From IMG/VR virus record IMGVR_UViG_3300028897_000412, positions 1-36,220 of that record: 36,220 bases of DNA; one strand, written 5' to 3'. Of this stretch, positions 3,001 through 27,301 are shown piece by piece (within the stretch, counting starts at the first letter, position 1; every line of letters starts with the position of its first letter). The notes under the pieces are model-generated. The model worked only from the letters and a program-made list of their open reading frames with translations, made no database searches and had not been told where the DNA came from. The DNA is from a virus. Position numbers and translations under genes: made by a program.

Positions 3001-6000
3001 TACCATTGATTTGCTCCCGTGCCGTCGAGGTTTCGGGTAACCGTATATTGATAGCCGCCACCACCTTCTCCGAGGCTTGCGGTAACCGCCATAAATTCAA
3101 CCTTACCGCCAGCTTCCATGTATATTCTGTCATTAACCGCTAACACACCATTATGTTTGACAGTAATAGTACTTGGGCCCGCTTCCGCAGCTAAGTCAGC
3201 AATAAGAGTAGTTGTTGGCCCGACAAGAATCCTGCCGCCTATTGTCGCCAGGGTTTCCTGGGCGACAAGTGTTTCTACCCATAGCTCGGCGGCATGCAGT
3301 GTAAGGTATTTCTTGCTCAACGAGCCAATGTTGAGATCGTAATTCGTGTTCGGTAAAATATCATTTCCGGTTGGATCGAAAACAACATCGCCCGTCGGAG
3401 CAACGGTTAGGTTGCCATTGGAGTTAACCGTAAAAGACGCATAGTTTGAAGCGTTATATTCAAGTCGTAATTGCTCTGTCGTCTTACGCACTTGAAGCAT
3501 CGCATTGCTGGGCGAAACATCAAGACCCAAAGCACCTTTAAGTTGTGACTTGGCATTATGCAAAGAATAGATGGCCCATTCGTTCGTTACTGAAGCACTA
3601 CCACTCTTGTTGGCAATATAGATACTGTAAGCGCTGGTGACCGTGCCACCGTCCGCGTCTAGCGAGGGGATTACCTCTAAACCCTTTGCGTTTGCCAAGG
3701 TGCCCTCGTGGCTGCTCGTGCTCCCATACCCTACGCAGATACCGGTTGCCTCTTGTGCATACGCACTTGCTCCCGCTTCGGCTCTAGCATAACCAAAAAC
3801 ACCCCTAGTTATACCAGCATAGGTTTGACTAGCCGCGACGGTTGTTAGGGCATCAAATTGAAGGCTGTTTATCGTTTGTGTGTTTGTGGAAGTGATACTT
3901 ATGTCCACATCGGCTTCAAGTGCAGCCATGGCAGAAGATGGATTGGTTCTATCTATATCGGTAAAAAGCAGATCGTCTATCGAAATCTTGCTGCCATCCC
4001 AGGCTATCTCCGCGTTTCCGCCCGTAGTCCTGCCGAGGATTAGCTTGACAGTTACGTCGTCCAGGTCTGAATTGACCGTAAAAGTGTCGGCAATGGTAGA
4101 GCTTATGTTGAGATTTTTGTTAAACGAGATGGCGCTGCCATCCCAGGCCATCTCCGCGTTTCCGCCCGTAGTCCTGCCGAGAATTAGCTTAACAGTCACG
4201 TCGTCCAGGTCTGAATTGATAGTAAGGGTATTGGCAACGGTTTCATCTATGTCGGCAACACCGATAAAATGCCCGGTAATTGTTAGGTCGGAACCGTCCC
4301 ACTTTAAATGATCGCCTGACGGGTTGCCAAAATGCACCTTGTAAGCACTGGAATGTTGGCCCATCCAGATACCCGTTCCGGTCATATAGTCTGTGGCGCT
4401 TCCCATCCGTATTGCCGGAGCCGACGAATCAAGGTAAATGGTATCCGAGTAAAAATGATCCAGACCAATCGTCCAGCCACCAATCTGCATTGACGCCGTG
4501 ACGCTAACAGAGTCATCGGCTGACGTCGGAAACTCTTCCTTTATTCCATTGTTATTAACTGCAACCAGCCTTACATAAACCGTGTCGCCGGAAATGTACT
4601 TCTGACCCATGCCAACAATACGAAAGCCTGTACCGTCGGGATCGTTCCCATAATATTCGTAAGTTGAGTCATCGGTAGAAATCCATACTTCCGCATGCGA
4701 CCAAAACGGATTGTCAGTATAGTCAAACGTGAGATTAAGATACGGCTCGTAGGCAGAGCTGCCAGTGTCGGATACCTGGCTAAGACTGATGTTTGTCGGG
4801 TGATCCAGTTCGGTCCACGGGTTCGGCAAATTCACAGCCTCATTGGCCTGGACTTCTGCCAATCGGTCGTGATAAATCGTACCGATGTACTCTTCTAGCT
4901 CAAATTTTATCCGCCCGTATTGATCGTGTGCTATGCGCTTTACAATAAAACTTTTGTTGCTAAATCCGGGCAATTCATGGGTTACTCGTACCCTATCGTA
5001 AAGTTCTATAGCAGCCGCGCTGGAAAAGGCAGTAAAACTACACTTGTAGGTTGTGTATTTTGCCTTGTCAAACTCATACTGCAAGCGCCGCTTAGCTATC
5101 TCGTGGTCGGTAATGTAAAACGCGTTGACTTCCTTTAATATCTCACCGTGTGTTTCTATGCCAAGCTGGTCTGTAAGGCCAATCTCTGCTTTTTTGTAGG
5201 AATTATCCGGATCGCGATAGCTCACCCGCACCTTGTTAGGTCTTTCCAGAAATCCCCAGTTAAAAGTGCCATGGACTATATTGCTAACCGTGAAATCAAA
5301 AACGTAAGATTTTGAATACTCCCAAACGGGTTTGGTTTTGCCTTGGCTCTGAACGGTGCGTCCGCGAAAGGCAGACCAGATAGTCTTTTTGGTATCGGTT
5401 ATGTCTTGCAGTGTTCGCCAGTGGTAGTCAAACTGAAATCGTTTCGATGTGCCACCGGTGGGCACTTGGTCTGAGTATTTCTTTAGCTCTTTGAACCAAT
5501 GCCTACTTAGCTCGGTAGAGTAATCATACCCTTCAATGTCAATACAGAAATCCCACATGATCGTACCTGGGTTTCTGCTAAAAATTCGATAGTCGTCGTC
5601 GGTGGCGTCAAGGCCCAAATCAACGCAGCCCGCTGTGCCAGTAAAGGCTTCGCTTGTACCACTACTGTACGATGAAAAGGCGTAAGCATATTGAAAGTTT
5701 TGCGCCTCTGTCAGGTTGATAGACTTGCTGTCCACTAGAGTCGCCCGGTCAACATCGCTGTAAATATAGACAGTCAGCGTGTCCGGTGTACCGCTTTCGT
5801 CGCGCACTATCGTCAGGTAATAAGTTGTATCGAGACTCAAGCCGGTTTTAGTATTTGTTGTCAGGCTCCCATTATTGCACTCTTGCACCCCTAGCGTAAA
5901 AGTAGTTGATGCAGCCTGAGCATAAACGCCCAGGTAATCTCCGCTGGCGACGTCGATGTTTTGAAAGTCGTTGGTGGAGTTTGCCAGCCCCCAACAATAA

Positions 6001-13815: not shown

Positions 13816-14228
13816 TATTTCTCCAGTGCCTTCTTAACAGCATCCGTCAGTTGTTTTTTTACTGTTTGAAATTTTCGAAACATCGCCATGCTAAGCCATG
13901 GCCTTCTTGGCCGCTCTTGCAATTCAACCAACTGACCACTTTCGTTTATTGCCCTGCCGGTTTCCCATAGTTGCCCATACCAGACGTTTGTACCAATGAT
14001 GCCAAAAATAGCACCGGGTTGAACCTTGGCTTCAGAGCCAACCGACCCACGAAGCCTGCCTGTTCTCACCCGCAAAAACTCGCCCGTCAAATGCAACTGC
14101 GCCTGGGCCTTGACGAACTTGCTCGACCTGTCTACCGCTCCATACAGCTCAGAGCGCAAGGAGTTTATTTTTTTCTCCATGTGCTCGTCGATTTCTTCTG
14201 TGTGCGGTATTAGTGTAAAACGGTACAT
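13815..14228 (-). CDS. HK97 gp10-like neck / minor tail protein
   Basis: 137 residues. RVRTGRLRGSV followed by GIIGTNVWYGQLWETG and RPRRPWLSMAM is the signature of the HK97_gp10 family, thought to lie at the head-tail junction between the connector and the tail terminator. The N-terminal part is helical. Position between connector and terminator supports the call. TAATG junctions on both sides indicate coupled translation. Confidence 0.85.
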   Translation of the reverse strand: MYRFTLIPHTEEIDEHMEKKINSLRSELYGAVDRSSKFVKAQAQLHLTGEFLRVRTGRLRGSVGSEAKVQPGAIFGIIGTNVWYGQLWETGRAINESGQLVELQERPRRPWLSMAMFRKFQTVKKQLTDAVKKALEK

Positions 14229-14809
14229 TACCTGCTCCAGCGCTGTATAAGCGACAAGTATTCGGGCAAATAATTAGCCTTCACAAAATTCGTACTGCCG
14301 CCGTGAGGCGTTGATTCGCTTTCGATCCATGCACGCTGCTTTTTCATCACATGATGCCAGTGGGCCACTTGTCTCGCCAGAATCCGGGCCGCGTTTGCTG
14401 GAAACGTCGAAGTATCATAGCCAGCCGTATAAGTAACTTTCAGTGCATGGTGGCCCAGTTCAAAACTATCATAAATATCGAGCATGATAATGCCCTTGCC
14501 GTAGTCCACCTTGTAATCAGTATTCTCAGTTAGTAAGTCGCCAGACGCAAAGGACCATTCAGAGTCTTCCCATACTTGTACTGCGGGGCTGGTTGCTACC
14601 GGGTATCCCCTGAGAATCACCTTGTTTCGCTGCGGCCCTATATCAAAGTATTCTGTGATGGATTGTTTCACCAACACTCTGTCGGTCTGTTCTTCAAAAT
14701 CCTCTTCCACGGCAATGATAATATCTTTGATCTCGTTTGCTTCCGGCTCCGACGCGAGTTGGCACTCTTTTAGTGCCAGAGCTAATGTAACCAGATTACC
14801 GTCGGCCAT
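14228..14809 (-). CDS. Head-tail connector (gp6-like)
   Basis: 193 residues. The N-terminal helices (LALALKECQLASEPEANEIK and following) and the pattern ILRGYPVATSPAVQVW, YKVDYGKGIIML and LKVTYTAGYD match the gp6/YqbG-like adaptor proteins that sit under the portal ring and join head to tail. The C-terminal helix ARQVAHWHHVMKK is also typical. In most siphoviruses this gene directly follows the capsid gene; here 11 kb of accessory genes lie between. The stop overlaps the next start as TAATG. Confidence 0.85.
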   Translation of the reverse strand: MADGNLVTLALALKECQLASEPEANEIKDIIIAVEEDFEEQTDRVLVKQSITEYFDIGPQRNKVILRGYPVATSPAVQVWEDSEWSFASGDLLTENTDYKVDYGKGIIMLDIYDSFELGHHALKVTYTAGYDTSTFPANAARILARQVAHWHHVMKKQRAWIESESTPHGGSTNFVKANYLPEYLSLIQRWSR

Positions 14810-15848
14810 CTTTGTCTCTCCTAATTATATCGATCAGTTTCTCGGCAGCTTGTTCCCAGGTAAACTGAGAATGTATGCGCTTTGACGCCGCCTTGCCTAG
14901 TTGTTTAACTTTGCCATAGTGCCGATAACAATAATCCATTGAATCGACCAAATGCTGTACGTGTGGAAATGCAGCCCCGGTTACAAAGTCTTCGACACCC
15001 TCTGATTCAGGTAACCACAACCGTACCTCGGTATCTTTAACTGTGTACTCCAAGGGTAAACCTACTGTTTTATCAAAAAAATCCGCCGTTCCAGACCACG
15101 GCGTTGCAATACACGGCAACCCCGTGCTCATGGCCTCACATAAAATCAATCCCCAACCTTCACCTCTGGTCGGATGCACGAGTACATGTGCGGAATGGTA
15201 AAGCGCCACAAGTTCCTCTAGGGGCAACTTCCTGCTATCGAATATTATGTTGCCCTTTTTCTCGTAGTCGGGGATGCGCTTAAACCTTGCCGCCATCTTG
15301 GGATTTGTGGCTTCGTCTACAGGTCGTACCTTTGTTGTTTTGAGATATAATTCGACATGCGGATCATTAATGAACCCACCACCGATCCAAGCCGCAATAG
15401 TTTCCTCGTAGCCCTTGCGCGGGTTTGGGGCACCGATCCATAAGTATCTGAAAGGATACGAGAAATTCCTTTTCTTATATTGGAATATCTTAGGTTCTGC
15501 TCCCTCCGGGCAAATGTAAATCTTTCCATTATAGTGCTGACCAAAAAGATCACGACAAAAACGACAGGGAACAAGCAGGCGATCAGCACGGTGAACGTTT
15601 TCTTTGTATGCGTCTGGAATTTTCGTCCCTTCAAACATGGTAAAAAGCCAGTTGATTTTTCCTGGGACACCACTTTTGAAAATGTCAGCCGACGTGATCG
15701 TAAGCGCATCTTCTGCATCCTCAGCAAGTTCAACATCTTTCCGCCTCGACACATACTCCAGCATCGTACTATTATGGACCGAATACCCAAGTTGATTGGA
15801 AACCAAATCCCTATATTGAGAGGCCCAGTGAAGTTTCAACCTACCCAT
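14796..15848 (-). CDS. GT4-type glycosyltransferase (GT-B fold)
   Basis: 350 residues. The C-terminal half has the retaining GT4 donor site: HSAHVLVHPTRGEGWGLILC followed by EAMSTGLPCIATPWSG; the central linker FRYLWIGAPNPRKGYEE is the usual start of the second Rossmann domain. NWLFTMFEGTKIPDAYKENV in the N-terminal half resembles enzymes acting on surface or flagellin-like glycans. No membrane helix. The ATG at 15848 is favoured over an upstream TTG because AAGGG lies 6 bases before it. The 3' end overlaps the head-tail connector start by 14 bases, so the glycan island is physically fused into the structural operon here. Confidence 0.88.
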   Translation of the reverse strand: MGRLKLHWASQYRDLVSNQLGYSVHNSTMLEYVSRRKDVELAEDAEDALTITSADIFKSGVPGKINWLFTMFEGTKIPDAYKENVHRADRLLVPCRFCRDLFGQHYNGKIYICPEGAEPKIFQYKKRNFSYPFRYLWIGAPNPRKGYEETIAAWIGGGFINDPHVELYLKTTKVRPVDEATNPKMAARFKRIPDYEKKGNIIFDSRKLPLEELVALYHSAHVLVHPTRGEGWGLILCEAMSTGLPCIATPWSGTADFFDKTVGLPLEYTVKDTEVRLWLPESEGVEDFVTGAAFPHVQHLVDSMDYCYRHYGKVKQLGKAASKRIHSQFTWEQAAEKLIDIIRRDKDGRR

Positions 15849-16020
15849 TAGCAACCCTTGTTAAATCACTATCGCTTTCATCGACTATAAGCAAATACTC
15901 GTGGTTCTTATGAAGTTGCCCTATCTCTTCCGGTAGCAGCATTATCCGTGCAATCCCAGCTTCGTAAATTTCGCCTACCTTCTGGTAGCGCTTTTTGCGA
16001 TACAGGAACCATTCAGTCAC
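15841..16020 (-). CDS. Small hypothetical protein, 59 aa
   Basis: The GTG start at 16020 lies 5 bases after the barrel stop, with AGAG upstream. The protein (N-terminus TEWFLYRKKRYQKVGEIYEA, then a strand-like EYLLIVDESD) has a basic N-terminus and acidic end and no recognised domain. Its TAG overlaps the ATG of the GT4 gene by 8 bases, with AAGGG for that gene inside its own 3' end. It fills the only gap in this part of the operon, which supports it as a real gene. Confidence 0.6.
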   Translation of the reverse strand: MTEWFLYRKKRYQKVGEIYEAGIARIMLLPEEIGQLHKNHEYLLIVDESDSDLTRVANG

Positions 16021-16025
16021 TATCT

Positions 16026-16625
16026 CTAAAATGTGTAGCCGACGCCCAAAAACATTCTGAGCCCACCGGCATCGAAAGTTGTTTGGTTGAACGTCTTGCT
16101 CATTTCGCGATTAAAAGAATACCGGGCATGTAATGTGGTGAAAAAACCGGAGTCGTGCTTAAACTGCAACCCCATGAGTACGTCCGGCCCCACGTTTGGC
16201 AGGGTTTCACTTCTGGCCCATGCACTGCCATCGCTGCGCCTGTAATCGTTTTCCAGGATCGTATAATTGACACCGGTTCCAACGTATCCTGTGAGCCAAT
16301 CCTTAAAGTCCTTGCGTATCTTCAGTCCGGAGCCAAAATAAGTTACATCGGCCTCATAGTACCGCCCATCAAACATTTCTACTTTTGTCGGATGGTCTTT
16401 GCCGCCATAAAAATACAATCCCGTGTTGTCCCACCAATACGTCGCCTCGGCTTGATAGCATGGGCCATTAAATTCCTTGTCTTCCTTTTCGCTATGAATG
16501 AACGTATGCCCGCTCTGCGACCAAATGTGGTATCCGCCACTGAATGACAATTCCAATTCATTCTTTGCGTGGGCCGACGTGGCAATGAATATCGCGGCTA
16601 CTAGAAAAAACAGTACCTTTCGCAC
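16026..16625 (-). CDS. Outer-membrane beta-barrel protein with signal peptide
   Basis: 199 residues. A classical signal peptide (MRKVLFFLVAAIFIATSAHA) has a probable cut after AHA. The rest alternates amphipathic strands (LELSFSGGYHIW, ATYWWDNTGLYFYGG, GSGLKIRKDF, GYVGTGVNYTIL, VLMGLQFKH, FTTLHARYSFN) and ends in GGLRMFLGVGYTF, the C-terminal Phe signature read by the BAM machinery. About eight strands fit an OmpA/Lom-size barrel. In lambda-like phages such proteins alter the host surface or block further infection; that role is inference here. GTG start has GGAGA 5 bases upstream, one base after the SQD1-like stop. Confidence 0.85.
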   Translation of the reverse strand: MRKVLFFLVAAIFIATSAHAKNELELSFSGGYHIWSQSGHTFIHSEKEDKEFNGPCYQAEATYWWDNTGLYFYGGKDHPTKVEMFDGRYYEADVTYFGSGLKIRKDFKDWLTGYVGTGVNYTILENDYRRSDGSAWARSETLPNVGPDVLMGLQFKHDSGFFTTLHARYSFNREMSKTFNQTTFDAGGLRMFLGVGYTF

Positions 16626-16626
16626 G

Positions 16627-17760
16627 TCATCTCCATTTTGTCTTTGGTGCTATGGCTTCCGGCTTGGCATGCTTAGCAAAACCGACGCACGCTCCCAGTA
16701 GCTTGACAAGTTCATCGTTGAAATTTCGGGGTCTGAAACCGAGATTTCGCAGTTGCACGCATTCCGGCAAGTAGAAATGTTCCTCTGCTTCTATGCGCGG
16801 GTTTTCCACCGAGCCGTATTCGGCCTTTATTAAACCAAAGTGTTTATGCGCACACTCGCAGACCAAGCGGCCCAGCTCTTCTATGGAAAACAAATCTCCG
16901 AATTGATTGAAAACTCTGTGTTCCCCGGCTTTTGGCGGGTTTAGCATGGACAACTCAAAGCACCGCATAGAGTCGTTGATATTGATAAAGCCTCTGGTTT
17001 GCCCGCCTTTACCGTATACGGTACATGGCATTCCAAGTGCCGCCTGGACACAAAACCGATTGATAACCGTGCCGAAACATTCGTCGTAGTCAAATCTGGT
17101 CCACCACACCGGTTCGTTTTCGGCATCGTCGATATGAGCCCCGTAAACCACACCCTGCATTATGTCTGTGGCTCTGAGCCCCCATTGATTGCACGCCATG
17201 GCAATATGATTAGTATCAGTCACCTTGGTTTGGTGATACCAGCTACCGGCCTGTTTCGGAAAAGGCAATCGATCCTTGCAGTTCCGATACTCTATTTCAA
17301 AGTACCCTTCGGGAATCGGCATGTTGGGCGTGCCGTATTCGCCCATGGTTCCCAGCTTTAAAAGGTGCGCTTCCGGACACGTTTCTTTCATGGCCCACAA
17401 TACATTGAGAGTGCCGACAATGTTGTTGACCTGAGTTTCCACGCACGTTCGTACCGATTTCATAGAGTACGGCGCAGAGGGTTGTTCGGCAAAATGCACT
17501 ATGGCGTCAGGTTTGTGGTTTGTGAACATCTGCTTGAGGTCTGCATAACTCGTGGCAATGTTCCCCTTGTAGAAATCGGCAAGCAATTTTCTCCGTGCTT
17601 CCATGGTGAGTATCGGGATCAAGCTGTCGCTGCCGACCCTATTTACTATTGATCTCCGATAGCCGTTGTCTACGCCCCAAACATTGTGGCCCCGATTTTT
17701 CAAGTACAGGGCCAGACTCCATCCCAGGTAACCGTCTATCCCCAATATGCAGACTTTCAT
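16627..17760 (-). CDS. sqdB: UDP-sulfoquinovose synthase family protein (SQD1/SqdB-like SDR)
   Basis: 377 residues from the ATG that overlaps the upstream TGA. SQD1 enzymes make UDP-sulfoquinovose from UDP-glucose and sulfite. Family signatures run throughout: ILGIDGYLGW, VDNGYRRSIVN, DSLIPI, IVHFAEQPSAPYSMKS, LGTMGEYG, SWYHQTK, FDYDECFGTVINRF, YGKGGQTRGFI, NPPKAGEHRVFNQF and PRIEAEEHFY. Candidate catalytic residues are Thr138, Tyr175 and Lys179; their spacing (37 and 4) equals Thr145, Tyr182, Lys186 of the plant enzyme as I recall it. A relative acting on another sugar is possible, but the FAEQ, QTR and EAEEH blocks are specific to this group. No lipid sulfoquinovosyltransferase is obvious, so a glycan use is more likely than sulfolipid. 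Confidence 0.9.
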   Translation of the reverse strand: MKVCILGIDGYLGWSLALYLKNRGHNVWGVDNGYRRSIVNRVGSDSLIPILTMEARRKLLADFYKGNIATSYADLKQMFTNHKPDAIVHFAEQPSAPYSMKSVRTCVETQVNNIVGTLNVLWAMKETCPEAHLLKLGTMGEYGTPNMPIPEGYFEIEYRNCKDRLPFPKQAGSWYHQTKVTDTNHIAMACNQWGLRATDIMQGVVYGAHIDDAENEPVWWTRFDYDECFGTVINRFCVQAALGMPCTVYGKGGQTRGFININDSMRCFELSMLNPPKAGEHRVFNQFGDLFSIEELGRLVCECAHKHFGLIKAEYGSVENPRIEAEEHFYLPECVQLRNLGFRPRNFNDELVKLLGACVGFAKHAKPEAIAPKTKWR

Positions 17761-17918
17761 TTTTCTACCACTCCCTTTTGTTTTTTCCACGCATCCCACG
17801 CATTCTCGCAATACACACAAACGTAAAGCGGTTTACCGTAAACCGCCGGATCATACTCAGGGTGAGCATGGCACACCGGCGGTATGGTGCGATTCAACTT
17901 GCGTGATCCCCTAACCAT
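17757..17918 (-). CDS. Small Cys/His protein, 53 aa
   Basis: Basic N-terminus (VRGSRKLNR), then CHAHPEYDP and YVCVYCENAWDAWKK, a pattern able to bind one zinc. The start at 17918 overlaps the upstream TAG by a few bases and has GAAAGAG before it; a GTG at 17939 is a less likely alternative. The TGA overlaps the following ATG as ATGA. Function unknown. It is one of three Cys-rich small proteins in the island. Confidence 0.6.
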   Translation of the reverse strand: MVRGSRKLNRTIPPVCHAHPEYDPAVYGKPLYVCVYCENAWDAWKKQKGVVEK

Positions 17919-18726
17919 TTTGTCTCTTTCTCTTCGCACGGTTTCTCCATCTAATTAAATCCTGTTTCATTCGATCCCTTGCAGACCAGCCCAGTACGTG
18001 ATATGCCATACTTGGATCGGGCGGCACGGCCTTCGGCTCCAGCTTAAAACCGTATTCCCAGTTTAACCCTATGGCATCAACCAGCTCGCGGATTGTTCTG
18101 GTCACTCCGGTACAGATTTCCAGGGGCACTCCAGGCAATGCCTTTGTTTCGATAACCGCCTTGATAGCCGAACACACTTCCCATACGTGGATAAAGTCGC
18201 GTTGCTGATTTCCGTCACAATAAACGGTAACGGTTTCCCCGCTCTCTATGGCTCTTAAAAACCTAGCGACCACGGTGTCTTTCTTTTGGGTAAAACAAAA
18301 CCCGCCGTACACATTGGAAAACCGCAAAACCCACGCTTGAACCAATCTTGTGGTTTCGCAAAGTTTTTCCACGGCCTGCTTTGTCTTGCCGTAAACCGTG
18401 TAGGGATTTTTGGCGGCGGCACTAGAGGCCACTATAAGTTTTTTTACTCCGGCACGTTTCGCTGCCAGCACGGCATTCACTGTGCCAACGTAATTAATCT
18501 GCCATGCAAGTTCGGGATTGTCATTACAGGGTGCTACGCCTGGAATCGCCGCAAGATGTATCATGGTGTGGCAATTCCGTGCGTACCGCGTGAGCGTCTT
18601 TAAATCCAATATGTCTAGCTCGCTTTGCAGATCGTACAGGACGACACTGTGCCCCAGCATCGTAAGAAACGTACCGAGGTTTAAACCAATATAGCCTTCG
18701 CCCCCGGTAATGAGGATTCTCACCAT
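17911..18726 (-). CDS. NAD(P)-dependent nucleotide-sugar epimerase/dehydratase (extended SDR)
   Basis: 271 residues. The N-terminal ILITGGEGYIG is the glycine-rich dinucleotide motif; HLAAIPGV, VASSAAAKNPY and the catalytic YGKTK (Tyr-x-x-x-Lys) follow, then RFSNVYGG and QQRDFIHVWEV as in GalE/RmlB-type enzymes. At 271 residues it is short for GalE (about 330). The exact reaction (C4 epimerase, 4,6-dehydratase or 4-reductase) cannot be decided. The Ser/Thr before the Tyr motif appears to be in the SSAAA block. It is adjacent to the 2-epimerase and the SQD1-like gene, so it likely shapes the same or a second nucleotide sugar. Confidence 0.85.
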   Translation of the reverse strand: MVRILITGGEGYIGLNLGTFLTMLGHSVVLYDLQSELDILDLKTLTRYARNCHTMIHLAAIPGVAPCNDNPELAWQINYVGTVNAVLAAKRAGVKKLIVASSAAAKNPYTVYGKTKQAVEKLCETTRLVQAWVLRFSNVYGGFCFTQKKDTVVARFLRAIESGETVTVYCDGNQQRDFIHVWEVCSAIKAVIETKALPGVPLEICTGVTRTIRELVDAIGLNWEYGFKLEPKAVPPDPSMAYHVLGWSARDRMKQDLIRWRNRAKRKRQNG

Positions 18727-18935: not shown

Positions 18936-20060
18936 CTACTCCCATAAAATTTTAGTTAAAATGTCACATATACGTTCGCCCGCCAATCCGTCGCCAAAAG
19001 GGTTACGCCACTCTTTGTGTGTGTCAAAGTGCTTCACTCCCCGGATAAGATCGTCGTAGTCGTGACCAGCAATGTAATTCGCTCCCACCTCTACAGTTTC
19101 GGGTCGCTCCGTATTGTCTCTCAATGTGATACAGGGAACGCCTAAAATGCACGCTTCTTCCTGTACTCCGCCTGAATCCGTAAGCACATAAGCCGCATTT
19201 TTTAGCAAGTTCAAAAAACTCAAATAGCCCACAGGCTCTATGACTTTGATATTTTCCTCTTTTACCAAATATTGAAAAATGCCGTATTTGTTCATCTGTT
19301 TCTTTGTCCTGGGGTGTATGGGGAAAACCATCTCTTTGTCCCAATGCCGGGCCATTTTGACCAGATTGGAAACGAGATAGGAAAACGTGCTCCAGTTGTC
19401 CACGTTTTCCTCCCTGTGGATCGTAACTAGAGCGTATTCCTTACTGAAAACCTCCAGGGCGCGTAAAATGCTATCCCCCGACACTAATTCTATGTTTTGA
19501 TACACGGCATCCACTATGGTATTACCAACAACTTCAATCCGCCCCCTTACATTGTCAGCCACAAGGTTTTGCTGGGCCTGCACCGTAGGTGCTAAGCACA
19601 CGTCGGATATATGGTCGATCATCACCCGGTTATGTTCTTCCGGCATGCGCCAATCGCCGCTTCTCAGTCCTGCTTCCATGTGTACCAGGGTTAGACCCAT
19701 CTTTCTGGCCGCGAGCGCACCGGCCAGATTCGTATTGGCATCGCCACCAACAATGACGACTTTGGGTTTTTCCACCCATAGTTCAAGTTCGATAGTGGTA
19801 AGCATCTGCGCCGTTTGATACCCATGCAGAGAAGCCGGGGCCATCTTGTTGTGGTACTTCGGTTTGGGTAGTTGCAGTTCCTCAAAAAACACCTTGTCCA
19901 TGTTTTCCGAGTAGTGCTGGCCCGTATGTATGACAAAAAACGGCAGTCCTCTAGTCCCTAGGGAACGTACCACCGGAGAAAACTTTATTATTCCCGGCCT
20001 CGTACCTACCACTACGGCAATGTTCTTCGCCAAGTCTTTCTTTTGTAATATCTTCGACAC
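18936..20060 (-). CDS. wecB: UDP-N-acetylglucosamine 2-epimerase, non-hydrolysing
   Basis: 374 residues, the normal WecB/MnaA length. It interconverts UDP-GlcNAc and UDP-ManNAc. Family blocks are intact: VVGTRPGIIKFSP at the N-terminus (the usual GTRPE has Gly in place of Glu), VIHTGQHYSENM, VIVGGDANT, HMEAGLRSGD, PEEHNRVMID, TIHREENVDN, FPIHPRTKKQ, TDSGGVQEEA and NTERPETVEVGAN. The GTG at 20060 is preferred because GGAGGGG lies 5 bases upstream and the resulting length fits the family; longer reading to 20180 would only run through the esterase gene. It supplies a nucleotide sugar for the local glycosyltransferases. Family assignment is very secure. Confidence 0.93.
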   Translation of the reverse strand: MSKILQKKDLAKNIAVVVGTRPGIIKFSPVVRSLGTRGLPFFVIHTGQHYSENMDKVFFEELQLPKPKYHNKMAPASLHGYQTAQMLTTIELELWVEKPKVVIVGGDANTNLAGALAARKMGLTLVHMEAGLRSGDWRMPEEHNRVMIDHISDVCLAPTVQAQQNLVADNVRGRIEVVGNTIVDAVYQNIELVSGDSILRALEVFSKEYALVTIHREENVDNWSTFSYLVSNLVKMARHWDKEMVFPIHPRTKKQMNKYGIFQYLVKEENIKVIEPVGYLSFLNLLKNAAYVLTDSGGVQEEACILGVPCITLRDNTERPETVEVGANYIAGHDYDDLIRGVKHFDTHKEWRNPFGDGLAGERICDILTKILWE

Positions 20061-20634
20061 CGAATCCCCTCCGCCGAATAATTGCGTCCATGACCCGTCT
20101 TGCCATCTCTTTCGATCCTTTATTGTTGAGATGCACCGAGTCGGGGTAACAGTCCTTTGGAAAGTTTGAAAGGTCGACAAAATTGCCGGTTCCGCTGGCC
20201 AGATTCGCCAGGATTGCGTTATATTCTTTTATGAGAGTTAGGGATTGCATATCGTATCCCGTACTCCCAAAACGCCCAAAATCCGGAACCGAACACAAAT
20301 ATACAATTCGGCCCAAAACGTTCAGCGCTCGCAAAATGCCTCGCATGTTTTTTTGAAAGATCAACGGCGGCGTCTGAACCGACGGCTTGGAATCGTTCGT
20401 GCCTATGCACACTACAACCTCCACCGCTTCCGGATACCTTTTTGTAAGATCGTAAGCGTTTCTTAGTAGGTCGGCGCTTGTCCAGTTGTTGACCCCTTTG
20501 TTTATGCAAATCCATTGCTGTTCGAATTTATTCGACAGCATGTCCGATAGCTCAAACGGGTAAGCCCGGTTATATTCATCTCGCGCCCCATTTGTAATGC
20601 TATCCCCCAGGCAGAGTATAAAGCCGTAAATCAT
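19951..20634 (-). CDS. SGNH/GDSL-family hydrolase (probable carbohydrate esterase)
   Basis: 227 residues. Block I is LCLGDSITNG at residues 7-16 (nucleophile Ser12), block III is CIGTND, and block V is DSVHLNNKG with the catalytic Asp and His. There is no signal peptide, so it acts in the cytoplasm, or on exit if carried in the virion. SGNH enzymes of this size often remove or move acetyl groups on sugars, which fits the surrounding genes. The ATG overlaps the upstream TGA as ATGA. The C-terminal tail of about 36 residues overlaps the start of the 2-epimerase gene by 110 bases in another frame, unusually long for this region. Confidence 0.85.
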   Translation of the reverse strand: MIYGFILCLGDSITNGARDEYNRAYPFELSDMLSNKFEQQWICINKGVNNWTSADLLRNAYDLTKRYPEAVEVVVCIGTNDSKPSVQTPPLIFQKNMRGILRALNVLGRIVYLCSVPDFGRFGSTGYDMQSLTLIKEYNAILANLASGTGNFVDLSNFPKDCYPDSVHLNNKGSKEMARRVMDAIIRRRGFGVEDITKERLGEEHCRSGRYEAGNNKVFSGGTFPRD

Positions 20635-21146
20635 TCTTTCCTCCAGGCCCAAACATTTCCTGGCATCTCTTCCACTTCGCCCAAAAGTTTGGTTACCGCC
20701 TTGCGCACTGTGGCAAAGTGAAAATCGTGCCCGCAAAGCACCCCTCCGCTTTTTACTTTCGGCAACCACGATTCCACATCAATAAGTACGGCATCGTAAG
20801 CATGGTCGCCATCTATAAAAACCGTATCAAAAAAATCTTTCCGAAACATTTTCGCTGCGGCCTCGGAAGTCATGCGCAAAACGCGCAACTGCCTAAACTC
20901 ACCTGTCAACCATACGGCATCAAAATACATACGATCCCACTCTTCGGCGGACAGCTTCATTAACCGTGGCTCGGAAGCACATTCAACGTTCCACGGGTCT
21001 ATGGCCCAGTATTGTTTTATTTCGGGCAAGTTCGCCAAGACCACTTTTGGCATAAGGCTGTCCCAAACGCCGATTTCGGCTACACGAACAGCCCCTAATT
21101 GTCTGATGATTTGCATCCACGATTGCCTATGTGGGCCTATCTTCAT
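20631..21146 (-). CDS. SAM methyltransferase-like, second Methyltransf_24 type
   Basis: 171 residues. The start at 21146 is chosen because TAATG joins it to the previous gene and GAGGA lies 7 bases upstream; a frame opening 30 bases earlier lacks this. Visible motifs are VRVAEIGVWDS, WAIDPWN, FDTVFIDGDHAYDAVLIDVE and GGVLCGHDF, typical of Methyltransf_24. The glycine-rich motif I is degenerate (GVWDSLMPK instead of a G-x-G), so SAM binding should be tested. It differs from its neighbour enough to be an old paralogue or separate acquisition. It ends in an ATGA overlap with the esterase gene. Confidence 0.75.
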   Translation of the reverse strand: MKIGPHRQSWMQIIRQLGAVRVAEIGVWDSLMPKVVLANLPEIKQYWAIDPWNVECASEPRLMKLSAEEWDRMYFDAVWLTGEFRQLRVLRMTSEAAAKMFRKDFFDTVFIDGDHAYDAVLIDVESWLPKVKSGGVLCGHDFHFATVRKAVTKLLGEVEEMPGNVWAWRKE

Positions 21147-21709
21147 TACAGTTTCCTCGCTATTGCCATACCACATTTGCCGGGCTGTCTATGGAGCCTC
21201 GGCTTGCCATCGTAAGGTAGAAGTATTCCTTGGAAATTGGCTTTATCCAGAAAGGTATCAACCGCCCTTCTTATTTCTTCGGAACAGTAATAGTCGTGGA
21301 CAACAATCAAACCGTCCTTTCTTATGGCCGCAGCAAAATTGAAAAGCAGTCGTACCTGGGATTCGTAGTCGGTAAGAGCGTCCACAAAAAGCAAGTCAAG
21401 AGGTATGTTCCACTCGCAATTTGTGGCATCAAGGCAGTGGAATTTCATTCTTAATTCGTGCCTGCGGTTTGCCCCCGCCACATAGAGTTTTTTGCGTTCA
21501 TTTATGTCGATAACATGATGATCGCCACCGAAATACTTCGCATGAAATCCCAGTGCAATGCTGCAATACCCGCCGCCGTAGCCTATTTCTGCGGTTGATC
21601 TTGCTTGCATCAAGCGGGCTAAATGATAAAGGATAGGCGCAACCCAATCAGTTAAGGACGGGCGTGCGTCTTCGGCCAGCTTTTGCCAAAACTCATTCGG
21701 GCTTTTCAT
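21146..21709 (-). CDS. SAM methyltransferase, Methyltransf_24-like
   Basis: 187 residues with motif I TAEIGYGGGYCSIAL, the acidic ribose-binding strand HHVIDINE, DLLFVDALTDYESQV and the post-motif GLIVVHDYY. These resemble the Methyltransf_24/TylF-like group, which often O-methylates sugars or small molecules. ATGA overlap with the GT2 gene upstream and TAATG with the next methyltransferase place it inside a tightly coupled group. A sugar O-methyl transfer is the likely role by context; the acceptor is unknown. Confidence 0.8.
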   Translation of the reverse strand: MKSPNEFWQKLAEDARPSLTDWVAPILYHLARLMQARSTAEIGYGGGYCSIALGFHAKYFGGDHHVIDINERKKLYVAGANRRHELRMKFHCLDATNCEWNIPLDLLFVDALTDYESQVRLLFNFAAAIRKDGLIVVHDYYCSEEIRRAVDTFLDKANFQGILLPYDGKPRLHRQPGKCGMAIARKL

Positions 21710-22554
21710 ATCGGCTCCAATCCTGCTTTTACTCGTTTCTCGCGGATGGAATCCACAGTATCAAGGCAGTTGCGAATGACGCCACGGTCTATCTCTTCGC
21801 GAATTACTGCCGGGTAGTCCCAAAACCTCCAAACTTCTGGATTAGGACAATCATCGGTTTCAAAAACTTTTCGTAAAAGCCACTTTTCAGCAACTTGATT
21901 AAAATCTCTCAACTCAAAACCCCTGTGTTCCGCTATCCATTCTCTTCGCGGCTTGACTCTTCCTGCATGTCGCCATTGCGGCCAAAACTGTCGTTCGTAA
22001 ATACGTTCGGGCCGCTTGATGCAGATATTCCAGACACCCCACCACGTTCGTAAGGCATTTTCGCGAGCCAGGCTCGTCGGCAAGTTGCGCGTTCCTGCCG
22101 CCGGAGCCCATACTTGAGGGTTGTTGCAGTAGAGGGTTTTGTGTGGCGGCTGAAAAGGCAATTTCGCGCTCGTATGTTCGTAGTCGTAAAAAAGCCGTAT
22201 GAGCGGAAACTTGTAGGTCATTATTTTTTCACTTCCGACCAGCTTCCTCACTTTGCGCATCGCGTATGGCCCCTCGGTTTGCAGAACATGGTCGCCGTCG
22301 TGAATAAAAATCCAATCGGTTTCACATTTTTCACAACTGAACGTCCTGGCGTCTTTTAATGTGCCCTCAAACTTAAAAGTCCGGGCCTTCAATCCCCAAG
22401 CGTTGATGCACTCACCCACGATTTCCATGGTGCGATCGCTGCACCCGTTGTCCACGAAAACAAATTCATCAACAATGTCTTTGGCCGACTTAATAGACAG
22501 GTCGACCATTAACTCTTCGTCGTACAGCACCATTGCTGCCGAAATAGTTTTCAC
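21706..22554 (-). CDS. Family 2 glycosyltransferase (GT-A)
   Basis: A 282-residue single-domain enzyme. The N-terminal ISAAMVLYDEE strand, FVFVDNGCSDRT, and the acidic metal-binding motif DWIFIHDGDHVL at about residue 85 define the GT2 fold; no membrane segment is present. It resembles the SunS/WaaE-like group of cytoplasmic GT2 enzymes, which use a nucleotide sugar to glycosylate lipid A core or peptides; which one applies is unknown. GTG is used as start because the family strand begins at residue 2 and the GTGA overlap couples it to the gene before. Its stop overlaps the next ATG as ATGA. Confidence 0.85.
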   Translation of the reverse strand: MKTISAAMVLYDEELMVDLSIKSAKDIVDEFVFVDNGCSDRTMEIVGECINAWGLKARTFKFEGTLKDARTFSCEKCETDWIFIHDGDHVLQTEGPYAMRKVRKLVGSEKIMTYKFPLIRLFYDYEHTSAKLPFQPPHKTLYCNNPQVWAPAAGTRNLPTSLARENALRTWWGVWNICIKRPERIYERQFWPQWRHAGRVKPRREWIAEHRGFELRDFNQVAEKWLLRKVFETDDCPNPEVWRFWDYPAVIREEIDRGVIRNCLDTVDSIREKRVKAGLEPI

Positions 22555-22760
22555 CGCCTTTTTCTCCCGCTCCGTTTTTTACGTTCCTTTTCCATAGCTT
22601 TTTTGCCGACGGTCTTAGGCTCCGGCCACACAACACCGCGCTGGTAAAAAGCGCTCTGCTGGCACTCCTGAGATGTGTATAGTCGGCATGCCACGTTGAA
22701 ACAAAACTCCGAGCCATCCCTGGCTACAAATTCTCCCTTCCCCAATTCACAAATCCCCAT
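22551..22760 (-). CDS. Small Cys-containing basic protein, 69 aa
   Basis: ATG at 22760 has GGAGG 4 bases upstream and overlaps the decarboxylase end by 14 bases. The N-terminal half has four Cys (ICEL, EFCFNVACRL, QECQQ), possibly a metal site; the C-terminus is strongly basic (KERKKRSGRKRR). No family recognised. The TGA overlaps the GTG start of the following GT2 gene as GTGA, so translation is probably coupled. Confidence 0.65.
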   Translation of the reverse strand: MGICELGKGEFVARDGSEFCFNVACRLYTSQECQQSAFYQRGVVWPEPKTVGKKAMEKERKKRSGRKRR

Positions 22761-23232
22761 CGTACCTCCAAATGATTTTGCCGTCGTTGCGATCAACCAC
22801 GAGAGCCACACCGACAAAGCCCTTAAAAAAAGCCTTGAAGATTTTCAGCGCTTTTTCGTAGTTAAATGGTTTGCAGGAAAATATGTCGAAATCCACCTCC
22901 CAATAATCAGTCCACGAATGTACCGTAACATGGCTCTCCCAAAGCATGGCGCAGCCTGTTATTCCTGAATCTTTCGGCTTGGAAGGATGATTGGCCCTAA
23001 TAATCATCGGGTTGTCTATGTACGGTATTAATTTCATCCCTATTTTTTCGGGAAGGGCGCGTACCAACTTAAATATGCCAAACCGCCATGCCAGAAAACC
23101 CGGATCGCATCTGACTAGAGTTCCCAACAAGTGAATCCCGCGATCCTTGCGCTTTAAAGGTTTTTGGCGAGCTGGACGAGCCAGTTGTTTAACTTGTCTA
23201 TATTTGAATCCACGTCGTATTTTCTGCCCCAT
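22747..23232 (-). CDS. speD: S-adenosylmethionine decarboxylase-like pyruvoyl enzyme (SpeD/SpeH class 1b)
   Basis: The core from about residue 32 matches class 1b AdoMet decarboxylases: IHLLGTLVRCDP corresponds to the N-terminal HLL-CD strand, and WESHVTVHSW to the family ESHxTxHTW. Using the Thermotoga enzyme as I remember it, Ser63 (cleaved to make the pyruvoyl group), His68 and Cys83 all have counterparts here at the same spacing (S, +5 H, +15 C in DIFSC). The usual WPE is WTD, so the substrate may have changed; relatives with arginine or ornithine decarboxylase activity are known. The ATG at 23232 has GAGG 7 bases upstream but adds a basic 31-residue leader over the glycosyltransferase 3' end. 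A later start such as TTG 23130 would give about 127 aa, the normal family length. Confidence 0.8.
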   Translation of the reverse strand: MGQKIRRGFKYRQVKQLARPARQKPLKRKDRGIHLLGTLVRCDPGFLAWRFGIFKLVRALPEKIGMKLIPYIDNPMIIRANHPSKPKDSGITGCAMLWESHVTVHSWTDYWEVDFDIFSCKPFNYEKALKIFKAFFKGFVGVALVVDRNDGKIIWRYDGDL

Positions 23233-25706
23233 TCCACAACCTCACCCATGTCCCAACCCTCTTTCAATTTCTGCACTATGATCTGGTCGGGATCGCGCTG
23301 ATACACCGTGCCGAAATTGCCCACCTGTTCGCGTATCGCCCCGGTTTCGTAGGCTACGGGCCAGCACCCGGCGTTCAATGCTTCGTAAATCGCCACCGAG
23401 GCCGATTCATAGATTGACGGGTGAAAATAAATCTTGCTATTGCCCATCATCTCGGCCACTTGCGATTTCGGAACATCAATCCAATAATCAACCCCGGATT
23501 GCTCGATGTGTTTGTTGCCGCCTATCGCGCAGATAGCCCCTTTAAGATTATTGTCTTTGACTACCCGCAAAAATTCCTCTACCCTTTTTTCCGCCGTGTT
23601 GGTTCGTGTGGCATAGCAAATGTCATACTTGCGCTCGCTGAGCGGCTTTGCGGCTTCCCTAAACATCTCGTAGCTATACGGTGGGAAAATCCACCTGTCG
23701 CATTTCAGCTCCCGGCATTTCGTTTCCGTATTAGTCCAGTATTCCTTTACTGGGCCTAAAGCCGTTCCTGTCGGGGAAATTGTCCAGCTTATAACTGGCG
23801 GCGCCCCCTTTGCTTCCACGGCACGTTGAGCTACTACCCAAGAAGCAAAAATTAAATCCCTGCCGCGCCACTCTTCTGGAGCCTCACCGTAAATCCTTTT
23901 CAGCGTAAGCCTTACATCTTCATCGGTAAGATACTTTGCGTCGTGCATTCGCAAAACGTCTTCTTCGCTCCGTATGTCTTCCGGATAAAAACACGAGTGT
24001 AAAATCACATCGTGACCAAGGCGCTTGAACGCATCGGCAAATCTCACCATGGTTGACATTCGTCCGGATATTCTTGCTATATTCCATTCGCATACGGTTA
24101 TTTTGAGTTTGCGCCGTGCATTTGCCAGTTCTTGCAATCGTCCCTTTAACCGACCTTCGATTGTCGGCCACTTGGGTACTACTACAGGTTTTGGCTTTCG
24201 GCTACTGTTCTTACCGTGCAAATGAACAACGCTAAAAGTCTCTTGCTGATATTGACTTCTGTAGCCAAGCCATCGCAAGGCATAGCTCAAACGCCAATCC
24301 GGCCACGGGCCAATACACCAATATTCTGATGCTTTCTGTATTGCCGACTTGCGAAAAACATTTGTCGAACCTATTGGGTTGGCAGTCATGTCAGAGCCAT
24401 TCCGGTGGTAGCTGCGACCGTACAAAACGTGGTCTACTTCAAAAACGTCGCCGTGAATCGTCGCCACGTCCTTTGGCGCGCCAATCAAATACGGCCTAAC
24501 ATCATGCCGCATTTCATCATCGTCATCACACATTCTGACCCACTCGTGGCTGGCCTCGGTTATGGCTCTAATTGTCAAATCGCGTGTATGTTGCCAGTAC
24601 CTCAGTAACATCTCTTCAGGGATTTCCGAAAACATGGAGCTGTCTATAGGAAGATCGTCAAAGCTCTGCTCGCGAACCACGATCTTGCTATAATCGGAGT
24701 AGCGCTGGGCTTCGTACTTCACGTTCCACCTGACGTCCGGAGCAACATACAAATTGATTTCGTCCGGATGCTGATAGGTTACTATCGATTTCATCGCCCG
24801 GTGAAATAACCCCTCGGAACGCGATACCAGCATGCTTACCGAGAGTTTTTCTGCGCCCGCTTCCAGTTTCGTCGTCCACCTTTCGACAAACCGTTTCATG
24901 CTGTTTTTCTTGGCTTCGTTGGAGTCGAAAGTTGTTTGAGTCGTAACGGTTGAGTTTTTCAAGTGCCGTATGCCAGTATTTGGCTCATGGTCAACTAGGT
25001 AACCCTTTTCTTTGGCTCTGAAAATAAAGTCGGTATCCGCATACCATGCCGGGGCATATCCTTCGTCGTAGCCGTTAAGACTTTCAAAAGTCTCTCTTCT
25101 CAGTATCATCCCGCCGGAGCCCACATAGAATGATTTGTTCCTTTTTGAACTGCACGGCATTGCCCCGCCGTCAATGGAGATGTACCATAGCTCGGAACCA
25201 ACAATGTCGGCCCCCTGTACCAGCTTTGAAAAAAGGACTCTGATAGTTTTCGGCTCAACGTACTGATCGTTGTCAAAAAACAAAAGCCATTCCCCGGTCG
25301 CCCGTTTCGCCCCTACGTTTCTTCCCATGGCGCAGCCCAGGTTGACCTCGTTTCGTACATAAACAAGGTCTGGTTGTGTCAGCGCCCAATCCCTTGTGCC
25401 GTCACTGGAACCATTGTCTACCAGGATAATTTCGTAAGGCCGCAAATTAGACGCCCGCAGCCTATGGATACATTCCTTGGTTATTTCCAAAAGGTTGTGA
25501 CATACAACAACCACGGAAATCCTGGCGCAGTTGCCACCGGTTTCCATTTCGGTTTTACATTCAGAATCGCTGGGCTCCAGCCCGAAAACGCTTACCTTGA
25601 AAGCGCTCGCCCCGCATCCTTTTTTTTGACACCGAATCGTAACCGGATAGTCTGCATCAAAAGTAAAGCTCCACCCGCAAACAGCACACTCGCCCCTTAG
25701 TCGCAT
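23154..25706 (-). CDS. Multidomain glycosyltransferase: zinc knuckle, GT2, second GT-A-like, GT4-like, 850 aa
   Basis: Residues about 5-40 form a Cys knuckle (ECAVCGW and RCQKKGCG). Residues about 65-270 are a GT2 domain: ISVVVVCHN, EIILVDNGSSDGT, NLGCAMGRNVGA, the LLFFDNDQ acidic motif and WYADTDFIFRA. Residues about 285-530 look like a second GT-A unit, with VSMLVSRSEG, an acidic MCDDDDEM motif and PDWRLSYALRW. Residues about 545-850 are GT-B/GT4-like: VCEWNIARISGRM, SWTISPTGT, DICYATRTN, and the donor-site helix FHPSIYESASVAIYEALNAG. It could therefore add several sugars in sequence in the cytoplasm. The ATG at 25706 has AGGA 9 bases upstream; a GTG two codons earlier overlaps the previous stop. 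The C-terminus overlaps the decarboxylase homologue by up to 79 bases. Domain calls are firm for units 1 and 3, weaker for unit 2. Confidence 0.88.
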   Translation of the reverse strand: MRLRGECAVCGWSFTFDADYPVTIRCQKKGCGASAFKVSVFGLEPSDSECKTEMETGGNCARISVVVVCHNLLEITKECIHRLRASNLRPYEIILVDNGSSDGTRDWALTQPDLVYVRNEVNLGCAMGRNVGAKRATGEWLLFFDNDQYVEPKTIRVLFSKLVQGADIVGSELWYISIDGGAMPCSSKRNKSFYVGSGGMILRRETFESLNGYDEGYAPAWYADTDFIFRAKEKGYLVDHEPNTGIRHLKNSTVTTQTTFDSNEAKKNSMKRFVERWTTKLEAGAEKLSVSMLVSRSEGLFHRAMKSIVTYQHPDEINLYVAPDVRWNVKYEAQRYSDYSKIVVREQSFDDLPIDSSMFSEIPEEMLLRYWQHTRDLTIRAITEASHEWVRMCDDDDEMRHDVRPYLIGAPKDVATIHGDVFEVDHVLYGRSYHRNGSDMTANPIGSTNVFRKSAIQKASEYWCIGPWPDWRLSYALRWLGYRSQYQQETFSVVHLHGKNSSRKPKPVVVPKWPTIEGRLKGRLQELANARRKLKITVCEWNIARISGRMSTMVRFADAFKRLGHDVILHSCFYPEDIRSEEDVLRMHDAKYLTDEDVRLTLKRIYGEAPEEWRGRDLIFASWVVAQRAVEAKGAPPVISWTISPTGTALGPVKEYWTNTETKCRELKCDRWIFPPYSYEMFREAAKPLSERKYDICYATRTNTAEKRVEEFLRVVKDNNLKGAICAIGGNKHIEQSGVDYWIDVPKSQVAEMMGNSKIYFHPSIYESASVAIYEALNAGCWPVAYETGAIREQVGNFGTVYQRDPDQIIVQKLKEGWDMGEVVEWGRKYDVDSNIDKLNNWLVQLAKNL

Positions 25707-25708
25707 AT

Positions 25709-25942
25709 TCACTCTTCCTTATGTTTTCTCGCGTAATGCCTTTTGGGATGAATCGGGCAATCGTAACAAACCATAAAACTGCCCGACCGCAGCAACTTAC
25801 ATGAACACTTTCTCTTTTTTTCGATACTTACTGTCTCTTCCGGTTTATGGTCTTGCTTCAGTTCCACATAACACTCCGCACATAAATTCTCGACAGCTCG
25901 CGGACTCTTTTTACAGTTGTCGCACCAAATATCTTTCGGCAT
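25709..25942 (-). CDS. Small Cys-rich (zinc-ribbon-like) protein, 77 aa
   Basis: The protein has two clusters: WCDNC near residue 7 with LCAEC near residue 20, and CSCKLL near residue 46 with VCYDCPIHPKRH near residue 58. This is the spacing of two small zinc-binding knuckles. It is the first gene after the capsid terminator. The only SD-like GGGG lies 9 bases before the ATG and is part of the terminator stem, so initiation may compete with hairpin formation. Its stop lies just before the giant glycosyltransferase start, and that protein also begins with a Cys-rich knuckle. Function unknown; nucleic-acid or protein binding is only a guess. Confidence 0.7.
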   Translation of the reverse strand: MPKDIWCDNCKKSPRAVENLCAECYVELKQDHKPEETVSIEKKRKCSCKLLRSGSFMVCYDCPIHPKRHYARKHKEE

Positions 25943-26041: not shown

Positions 26042-27301
26042 TTAGGAATGGGTCAGCATCCGCACGAAAGCAGTAGTTAACGCCGCTTCCAAATCCCACA
26101 TATTCCACAGTTTGAACCGGGTCTTGTTCTCAACGAACAAACCATAGGGGTCAACATGGAGAGCCATGCTGCCGACTCGGCGACCTACCCAAAAATACCG
26201 CAAGTTGCCGAAGGTCAAGAATGCGGTGTTAGCCGCATCAGTACCGGGGCACTTGGTATTCTCGTAGTAGGGGAACCCGTAAATGGTAGGCGGCTTGTTG
26301 CCAGCCGGTTCGTAGAAAATGGGACGACCATTGGAGTCCTTAAGGGTGCGCACGTAATGCATGGCAAGGCCGTGCATGTGGAAAGAAGCATTTTGCTTCC
26401 GGCGTCCGTCAAGTTTCTGGATCATTTCACTGAGCAGATCAGCGGTGGTATTGGCGAACGAAGTTGATCCAGCTCCCATGACAACTGAATGACCACACCA
26501 GGCGGTCAGAAGACCAGAGCAGGGATTGCCAGTACCGTTCCACGCCTGGTTATCCAACTCAAGCCCCATAGCCTCCGCAAACAACTCGGTCAGCCAGGAC
26601 ACTATGTCGTAGTTTGCGTCATACAGGGTCTTGTTTCTCACGGTTGAGTAGGCTCCCACTTCCTGCGGGTCCAGCTCAACTTCCGTGATAGTTGGATCAG
26701 ATGCGGCTGCGGTACTAGACCACGTTACCGATACCCCGGCAGATTCGACAGGCAGCGACAGCTTGCCTGGTCCCATTTCAACCACAGTACCTTGCTGTAG
26801 GATCAGAGACTCTTCACGGGCAAAGCGAACAACCTCGTCCTCCACAACGTCCGGCATGGGCCACAGGTTTCCGGGGTCACCGATTGCGGTTTTTTCCCTG
26901 CGAAGGTGACCGTATTCCTGGTCAAAAAGCTGGCGTGCGCGGTAGTCTTCCTTTACAGCCGCTTCCACGAACAGAACCATATACTTGGCGATCTGCTCGC
27001 GCACCGCATGATCTTCGATGCGGTACTTGTGGCCGCGAAGCTGTTTGTCCATGAGCCGCAAGCCCAGCCGCGAGATACTCCGTCCCAGTTCCTTTTCGAT
27101 GAATCCCTTTACAGGGTCATCTCCCAGGTGAGAAGTATCCCACATCTGGAAAGTGCCAGCCTTCTGCTTTTCGACTGCCTCGGCAATCTTGGCCTGTTCC
27201 TCTTCGGCCTTTTCCTTTGCCTCAAGATAGGCATTGAGCCCGGCGGTTTGCTTTGCCAGGTCTTCAATTACCTCAATCAGTTTCTTTTCGTTCTCTTCCA
27301 T
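26042..27301 (-). CDS. Major capsid protein, HK97 fold
   Basis: A 419-residue protein downstream of the prohead protease. Residues about 1-60 are a highly charged coiled coil (KKLIEVIEDLAKQTAGLNAY and following), typical of the delta domain removed by the protease. The mature part contains the HK97-family core: LPVESAGVSVTWSSTAAAS, LDPQEVGAYSTVRNKTLYDA, the spine-helix region LTELFAEAMGLELDNQAWNG, then GNPCSGLL, YYENTKCPG and LFVENKTRF near the end. It forms the icosahedral shell. AGGAG lies 9 bases before the ATG. Terminator-like hairpins on both sides suggest its transcript level is set apart from its neighbours. Confidence in the family is high; the cleavage site cannot be read from sequence alone. 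Confidence 0.95.
   Translation of the reverse strand: MEENEKKLIEVIEDLAKQTAGLNAYLEAKEKAEEEQAKIAEAVEKQKAGTFQMWDTSHLGDDPVKGFIEKELGRSISRLGLRLMDKQLRGHKYRIEDHAVREQIAKYMVLFVEAAVKEDYRARQLFDQEYGHLRREKTAIGDPGNLWPMPDVVEDEVVRFAREESLILQQGTVVEMGPGKLSLPVESAGVSVTWSSTAAASDPTITEVELDPQEVGAYSTVRNKTLYDANYDIVSWLTELFAEAMGLELDNQAWNGTGNPCSGLLTAWCGHSVVMGAGSTSFANTTADLLSEMIQKLDGRRKQNASFHMHGLAMHYVRTLKDSNGRPIFYEPAGNKPPTIYGFPYYENTKCPGTDAANTAFLTFGNLRYFWVGRRVGSMALHVDPYGLFVENKTRFKLWNMWDLEAALTTAFVRMLTHS

Follow-up and report, generated by a model that had tools for sequence, protein, structure and literature searches.

Tailed phages that decorate their own particles are known among the mycobacteriophages, whose virions are glycosylated by phage glycosyltransferases, and to our knowledge no sulfonated sugar donor has been described in phage virion glycosylation. 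Virion glycosylation has also been suggested for phage Maravista (PMC11256854). The phage studied here resembles these systems in that tailed phages carry glycosyltransferase genes and capsid protein is the proposed target. As for enzymes, the closest described systems are SQD1 of Arabidopsis (PDB 1qrr, 1i24), which serves plastid sulfolipid synthesis, and Agl3 of Sulfolobus acidocaldarius, the product of an archaeal chromosomal gene that serves a glycan and not a lipid (PMC4388408). A putative UDP-sulfoquinovose synthase was also reported in a Mu-like virus of the Cariaco Basin, with a proposed change in host N-glycosylation (Mara et al., 2020; PMC7785012), so that this enzyme class is not new in a virus. 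The opposite direction to that of the phage considered here is taken by a virus of archaea, which attacks a glycan of its host that presumably bears sulfoquinovose (PMC12042106). The original prediction, according to which no phage system of this kind had been described, must thus be narrowed: a putative viral enzyme was already on record, while no description was found in the literature of a head-tail glycan cassette, of a pairing with cysH, or of the active-site Pro variant detailed below. These three features are what is new here. The likeness to the Cariaco virus is one of annotation, and the accessible portions of that report describe none of the three (PMC7785012).

The window, by which we mean the whole stretch of DNA analysed, is a linear IMG/VR virus record of 36,220 bases. 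It contains, at 16627-17760 on the minus strand, an SQD1/Agl3-family gene for a predicted UDP-sulfoquinovose synthase of 377 aa. Its ATG lies at 17760, preceded by GGGAG, its stop codon ends at 16627, and stops interrupt the plus strand over the same interval. The coordinates first proposed were exact, and the strand, which had been omitted, is minus. All of the motif blocks then listed are present (HFAEQPSAPYSMKS, LGTMGEYG, YHQTK, GGQTRGFI, FNQF and EAEEHFY), and the suggested catalytic triad is confirmed by alignment, Thr138, Tyr175 and Lys179 corresponding to Thr145, Tyr182 and Lys186 of SQD1. The protein carries the SDR signature, with G7, G10 and G13 (GxxGxxG, here GIDGYLG), T138 and the YHxxK residues Y175, H176 and K179. 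With Agl3 it shares GIDG, TMGEYG, YHxTK, TDIMQG and GGQTRGF, and it lacks about seven residues of that protein after residue 61. In the dehydratase-like stretch T138-M139-G140-E141-Y142, residues M139, E141 and Y142 are Met145, Glu147 and Tyr148 of Agl3; SqdB-like proteins, in a small alignment, carry Val at the Glu site. Mutagenesis showed that Agl3 requires His95, Met145, Glu147, Tyr148, Ser180, Tyr182, Thr185 and Lys186 (PMC4388408), and these are kept in the window protein as H89, M139, E141, Y142, S173, Y175, T178 and K179. The Agl3 sequence used for comparison (393 aa) was located by means of the primer DNA published for its mutagenesis; H95, T144, M145, E147, Y148, S180, Y182, T185 and K186 are in place in it, and the Arg numbered 101 in the paper is its residue 100.

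Membership of the UDP-sulfoquinovose synthase family, as claimed beforehand, was borne out by sequence, tree and predicted fold. A phmmer search against PDB sequences returned Arabidopsis SQD1 (1i24) over the whole length at E=1.7e-109, with the next molecule at about 1e-7, and the NCBIfam model NF041015 ("UDP-sulfoquinovose synthase") was matched in full at E=1.6e-138. The corresponding score of 461.8 bits is below the equivalog cut-off of 575 bits, so that the protein is not filed under this equivalog; a Ca. Falkowbacteria protein encoded beside a sulfite operon (L145, see below) is also under it, with 456 bits. In a small alignment, identity reached 48% with SQD1, over the full length, and 39-40% with SqdB-like proteins of Sinorhizobium and Marinovum. 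Annotated phage records offered as closest matches epimerases at only 24-28% identity, and in a library of predicted viral structures an SQD1-like entry was absent among the matches listed, the best being a dehydratase at 19% identity. An AlphaFold2 model built from nine aligned relatives (pLDDT 78.6; poor at 140-159, 164-171 and 322-327) matched the SQD1 crystal structures with Z 46.2-46.4 over 356-358 residues (1qrr: Z 46.4, rmsd 2.7, 356 residues), and UDP-glucose 4-epimerases came next, at Z 30.6.

The phylogeny against GalE-like epimerases, which the original prediction had called for, likewise grouped the protein with the SQD1 family. This family formed a single clade against an outgroup of E. 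coli GalE and RmlB, supported at 98 in a quick tree of 106 rows and at 100/98 in a careful tree of 78 rows. An ordinary GalE- or RmlB-type nucleotide-sugar enzyme would share the SDR superfamily, and the only Pfam names obtained for the window protein are "Epimerase" and "GDP_Man_Dehyd"; yet in the rooted trees the window protein falls within an unbroken SQD1 family (support 98 to 100%), apart from GalE and RmlB, and Z values of 46 versus 30 agree, which rules such an enzyme out to the point that we give it hardly any credence. Within the family, the careful tree revealed a split supported at 99/99, one side holding SQD1 together with the SqdB-like and most of the bacterial proteins, the other holding the window protein, Agl3, proteins of Thermoplasmata and of two other archaea, and many phage proteins. 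Since SQD1 and Agl3 lie on opposite sides, verified UDP-sulfoquinovose synthases occur on both sides of the split. The earlier comparison with the plant triad had missed this position on the Agl3 side. The nearest protein, at 55% identity and with poor branch support (80/34), is encoded by L008, a 45-kb phage contig with a large terminase gene. As judged from sequence, tree and modelled fold, membership of the SQD1/Agl3 family, inside a phage virion module, is real and well supported.

At one active-site position, also overlooked at first, the window protein differs from SQD1 and Agl3 alike: Pro94 replaces the Arg of EQR(S/A)APYSM that is found in SQD1, SqdB-like proteins and Agl3. Substitution of Ala for the corresponding Arg (Arg101) abolishes Agl3 activity, and Agl3 itself yields UDP-glucose-5,6-ene when sulfite is withheld (PMC4388408). 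A Pro94 enzyme could thus have a sister activity, stopping at the 5,6-ene, adding another nucleophile or using another UDP-sugar, in line with the score below the equivalog cut-off and with the frequency of Pro at this site (90/134 viral and 21/86 cellular members, these being best-matching members only and hence a biased sample). By contrast, both sides of the SQD1/Agl3 split include Pro-type as well as Arg-type proteins, which means that the site has changed more than once, and two Pro-type archaeal proteins exceed the NF041015 cut-off (L088, 578 bits; L109, 612 bits), so that the Arg of EQRSAPYSM is not family-defining. Taken together, these two observations point to a recurrent variant and not to a single separate subfamily. 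The idea of Pro94 as the mark of a separate subfamily that does not use sulfite is further weakened by the occurrence, in three unrelated contexts, of Pro-type genes immediately after cysH or cysHDN, and we consider a sister activity unlikely. No paper assaying a Pro-type enzyme was found in the literature. Such Pro-for-Arg variants bear on the handling of sulfite by this enzyme class.

The three contexts, which the original prediction had not noticed, deserve description. In L008, a gene for CysH (APS/PAPS reductase) lies directly upstream of the SQD1 gene; its product has the CC, CxxC and ECGIH motifs and scores 179 bits against NCBIfam NF002537, above the cut-off of 154. In L195, which carries terminase, portal and major head genes, and in its near copy L194, cysH is 230 bases upstream of SQD1; these two contigs form one lineage, apart from L008 in the tree. 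Of 130 SQD1-bearing virus records that were searched in full, these three alone contained PF01507 (cysH), each time (3/3) immediately upstream of SQD1 and in the same orientation, so the pairing is rare among viruses and confined to two lineages. A cysH query in viral contigs, with patterns that were too narrow, matched the L008 record alone. The third context is cellular: in Ca. Falkowbacteria L145, cysH, cysD, cysN and a Pro-type SQD1 gene form a consecutive series, preceded by a cytidylyltransferase-like gene and followed by a NeuB-like gene, and a search for similar operons in 286 Patescibacteria genomes added one further, distant relative. All being Pro-type, the three contexts are the best evidence that Pro-type enzymes would use sulfite, and they make the synthesis of UDP-sulfoquinovose out of UDP-glucose and sulfite the most likely activity of the window protein as well. 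The 36-kb window is without cysH, so that this phage would depend for sulfite on its host or on genes beyond the fragment.

Other glycan-related genes were seen near SQD1 in relatives. A NeuB-like, sialic-acid-type synthase adjoins it in two viral loci (L038:92-922; L013:1275-2069, the latter recognised by eye) and in the Falkowbacteria operon (L145:7157-8182). Sulfotransferase-like genes occur near Pro-type SQD1 in some phages (L014:9145-9975, L044:8345-9187, L037:16736-17416); those of L044 and L037 matched Sulfotransfer_3, and that of L014 was recognised only through 25% identity to L044. It is possible that such phages make sulfated as well as sulfonated glycans.

The placement of the gene between head and tail genes, as initially put forward, is correct: the major head protein gene lies upstream (26042-27301; phrog_10 E=1.1e-36), and the genes for the head-tail adaptor, neck, tail terminator and major tail protein lie downstream (14809-12908). 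Between the major capsid and adaptor genes extends an 11-kb glycan cassette in which all genes are on the minus strand and mostly overlapping, the largest gap being 171 bases. The first large gene after the major head protein encodes a GT2-GT4 fusion glycosyltransferase (23154-25712). It is followed by an S-adenosylmethionine decarboxylase-like gene (AdoMet_dc, ESH motif; 22747-23232), which could supply an aminopropyl donor, a GT2 glycosyltransferase gene (21706-22554), two Methyltransf_24 methyltransferase genes (21146-21709 and 20631-21176), an SGNH/GDSL hydrolase gene (19951-20769) and a WecB-type UDP-GlcNAc 2-epimerase gene (18936-20180; TIGR00236, 361.7 bits for a cut-off of 210), whose true start is probably downstream of the listed TTG. 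Two genes upstream of SQD1 is an NAD-dependent epimerase/dehydratase of the SDR type (17911-18726), and in between, an open frame of 60 aa without Pfam match (17757-17939) shares 4 bases (ATGA) with the start of SQD1. Directly after SQD1 comes a gene for a 199-aa protein without Pfam match (16026-16625), which is probably exported, given its signal-peptide-like N-terminus, and whose beta-barrel-like appearance by eye would point to a Gram-negative host. The last cassette gene encodes a GT4 glycosyltransferase (14796-15854) and overlaps by 14 bases that of the head-tail adaptor (14228-14809; phrog_442 E=2.6e-11), so that a common transcript for cassette and virion genes is very likely. The window cassette is indeed one with glycosyltransferase genes co-directional with the capsid and tail genes and overlapping them, and the base composition of SQD1 resembles that of its neighbours. 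Scans for promoters and terminators stayed at chance level, and no sulfoquinovosyltransferase or sulfolipid-synthase partner was identifiable among the GT4 matches from family models.

Two further large frames lie in the window outside the cassette. Upstream of the capsid genes, 28898-34213 encodes a 1771-aa protein with RCC1 repeats followed by dozens of short degenerate repeats like YEGSGQITVSGAAD. The giant open frame at 3-6749, which matches Phage-tail_3, encodes at least 2249 aa and is interrupted by the record end.

The SQD1-family gene was found by scans in 134 IMG/VR contigs. These relatives came from alignment queries; scans that used a single query sequence, either the SQD1 or the major head protein of the window, gave zero viral relatives. 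A layout like that of the window recurs in other phages. In L011, L014 and L178, the major head gene is followed by glycan genes including SQD1, then by connector and/or tail genes; in L008, L012 and L025, SQD1 comes downstream of the major head gene, and in L009 it lies between the tail tube and tape measure genes. An SDR epimerase gene is near SQD1 in the window, L011 and L014 (within two genes) and slightly further away in L195, and the window, L014 and L195 each have a GT2-GT4 fusion after the capsid gene (its second half being weak in L195). This repeated placement among virion genes suggests that the product is needed at particle assembly, which makes virion glycosylation the first choice. 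Elsewhere in the family, 29 viral loci form a starred clade (L181:9986-11185, L184, L186, L188 and others), in which many SQD1 genes are without glycosyltransferases and sit within a DNA-replication module (dCMP deaminase, ParB-DNA methylase fusion, UDG and DNA polymerase A); a link of these genes to nucleotide or DNA modification is possible.

We consider it fairly probable that the window gene encodes an NAD-dependent UDP-sulfoquinovose synthase which, transcribed with virion and glycan genes, builds a sulfonated glycan late in infection, with a virion protein as the likeliest target. From a mechanistic point of view, the enzyme would oxidise UDP-glucose at C4, water would be lost between C5 and C6, sulfite would be added at C6, and reduction of the 4-keto group would give UDP-sulfoquinovose. 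The gene would be expressed together with capsid, tail and cassette genes; the GT2-GT4 fusion, GT2, GT4, UDP-GlcNAc 2-epimerase, SDR epimerase and methyltransferases would assemble the sulfonated glycan late in infection, with sulfite presumably supplied by the host. Of the earlier proposal of a sulfonated glycan on the virion or host surface, the family is supported and the glycan role gains from the cassette and from the same layout in other phages; use of sulfoquinovose on the virion is plausible from the gene content. The same activity could instead place sulfoquinovose on the host envelope (LPS, capsule or glycolipid), blocking re-infection or altering surface charge. Known sulfoquinovose products are indeed lipids and cell-surface glycans (PMC4388408), and the gene after SQD1 (16026-16625) resembles, by eye, an exported outer-membrane beta-barrel. 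Against this, the window genes tested included no recognisable flippase, polymerase or transferase for initiation on a lipid carrier, and the cassette genes are embedded among virion genes and overlap them; we therefore hold an envelope target to be a minor, rather doubtful possibility. An auxiliary metabolic gene that only alters host glycosylation or sulfur metabolism would follow the proposal published for the Cariaco virus, according to which the viral enzyme modifies host N-glycosylation (PMC7785012). This seems very improbable here, the window gene being one of about ten glycan genes within a virion module and not an isolated one.

Modification of the virion might extend beyond this phage. 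As relatives pair SQD1 with a sulfite-making gene, these viruses may add a coat of sulfonated sugar to themselves or to their host. We tentatively propose, from gene neighbourhoods, that in diverse tailed phages CysH may make sulfite, a Pro-type SQD1/Agl3 enzyme may make UDP-sulfoquinovose from it and UDP-glucose, and GT2-GT4 fusions may put sulfoquinovose on the capsid. No link between viral cysH and sulfoquinovose was found in the open-licence literature. Viral cysH is usually read as an aid to host sulfur assimilation. If the proposal is true, cysH would in some phages serve virion decoration and not host sulfur assimilation, which would give some viral cysH genes a testable function. Phages would then make a strongly acidic C-sulfonated sugar, so far known from sulfolipids and from the surface glycans of archaea, and would probably use it as a coat for their own particles.
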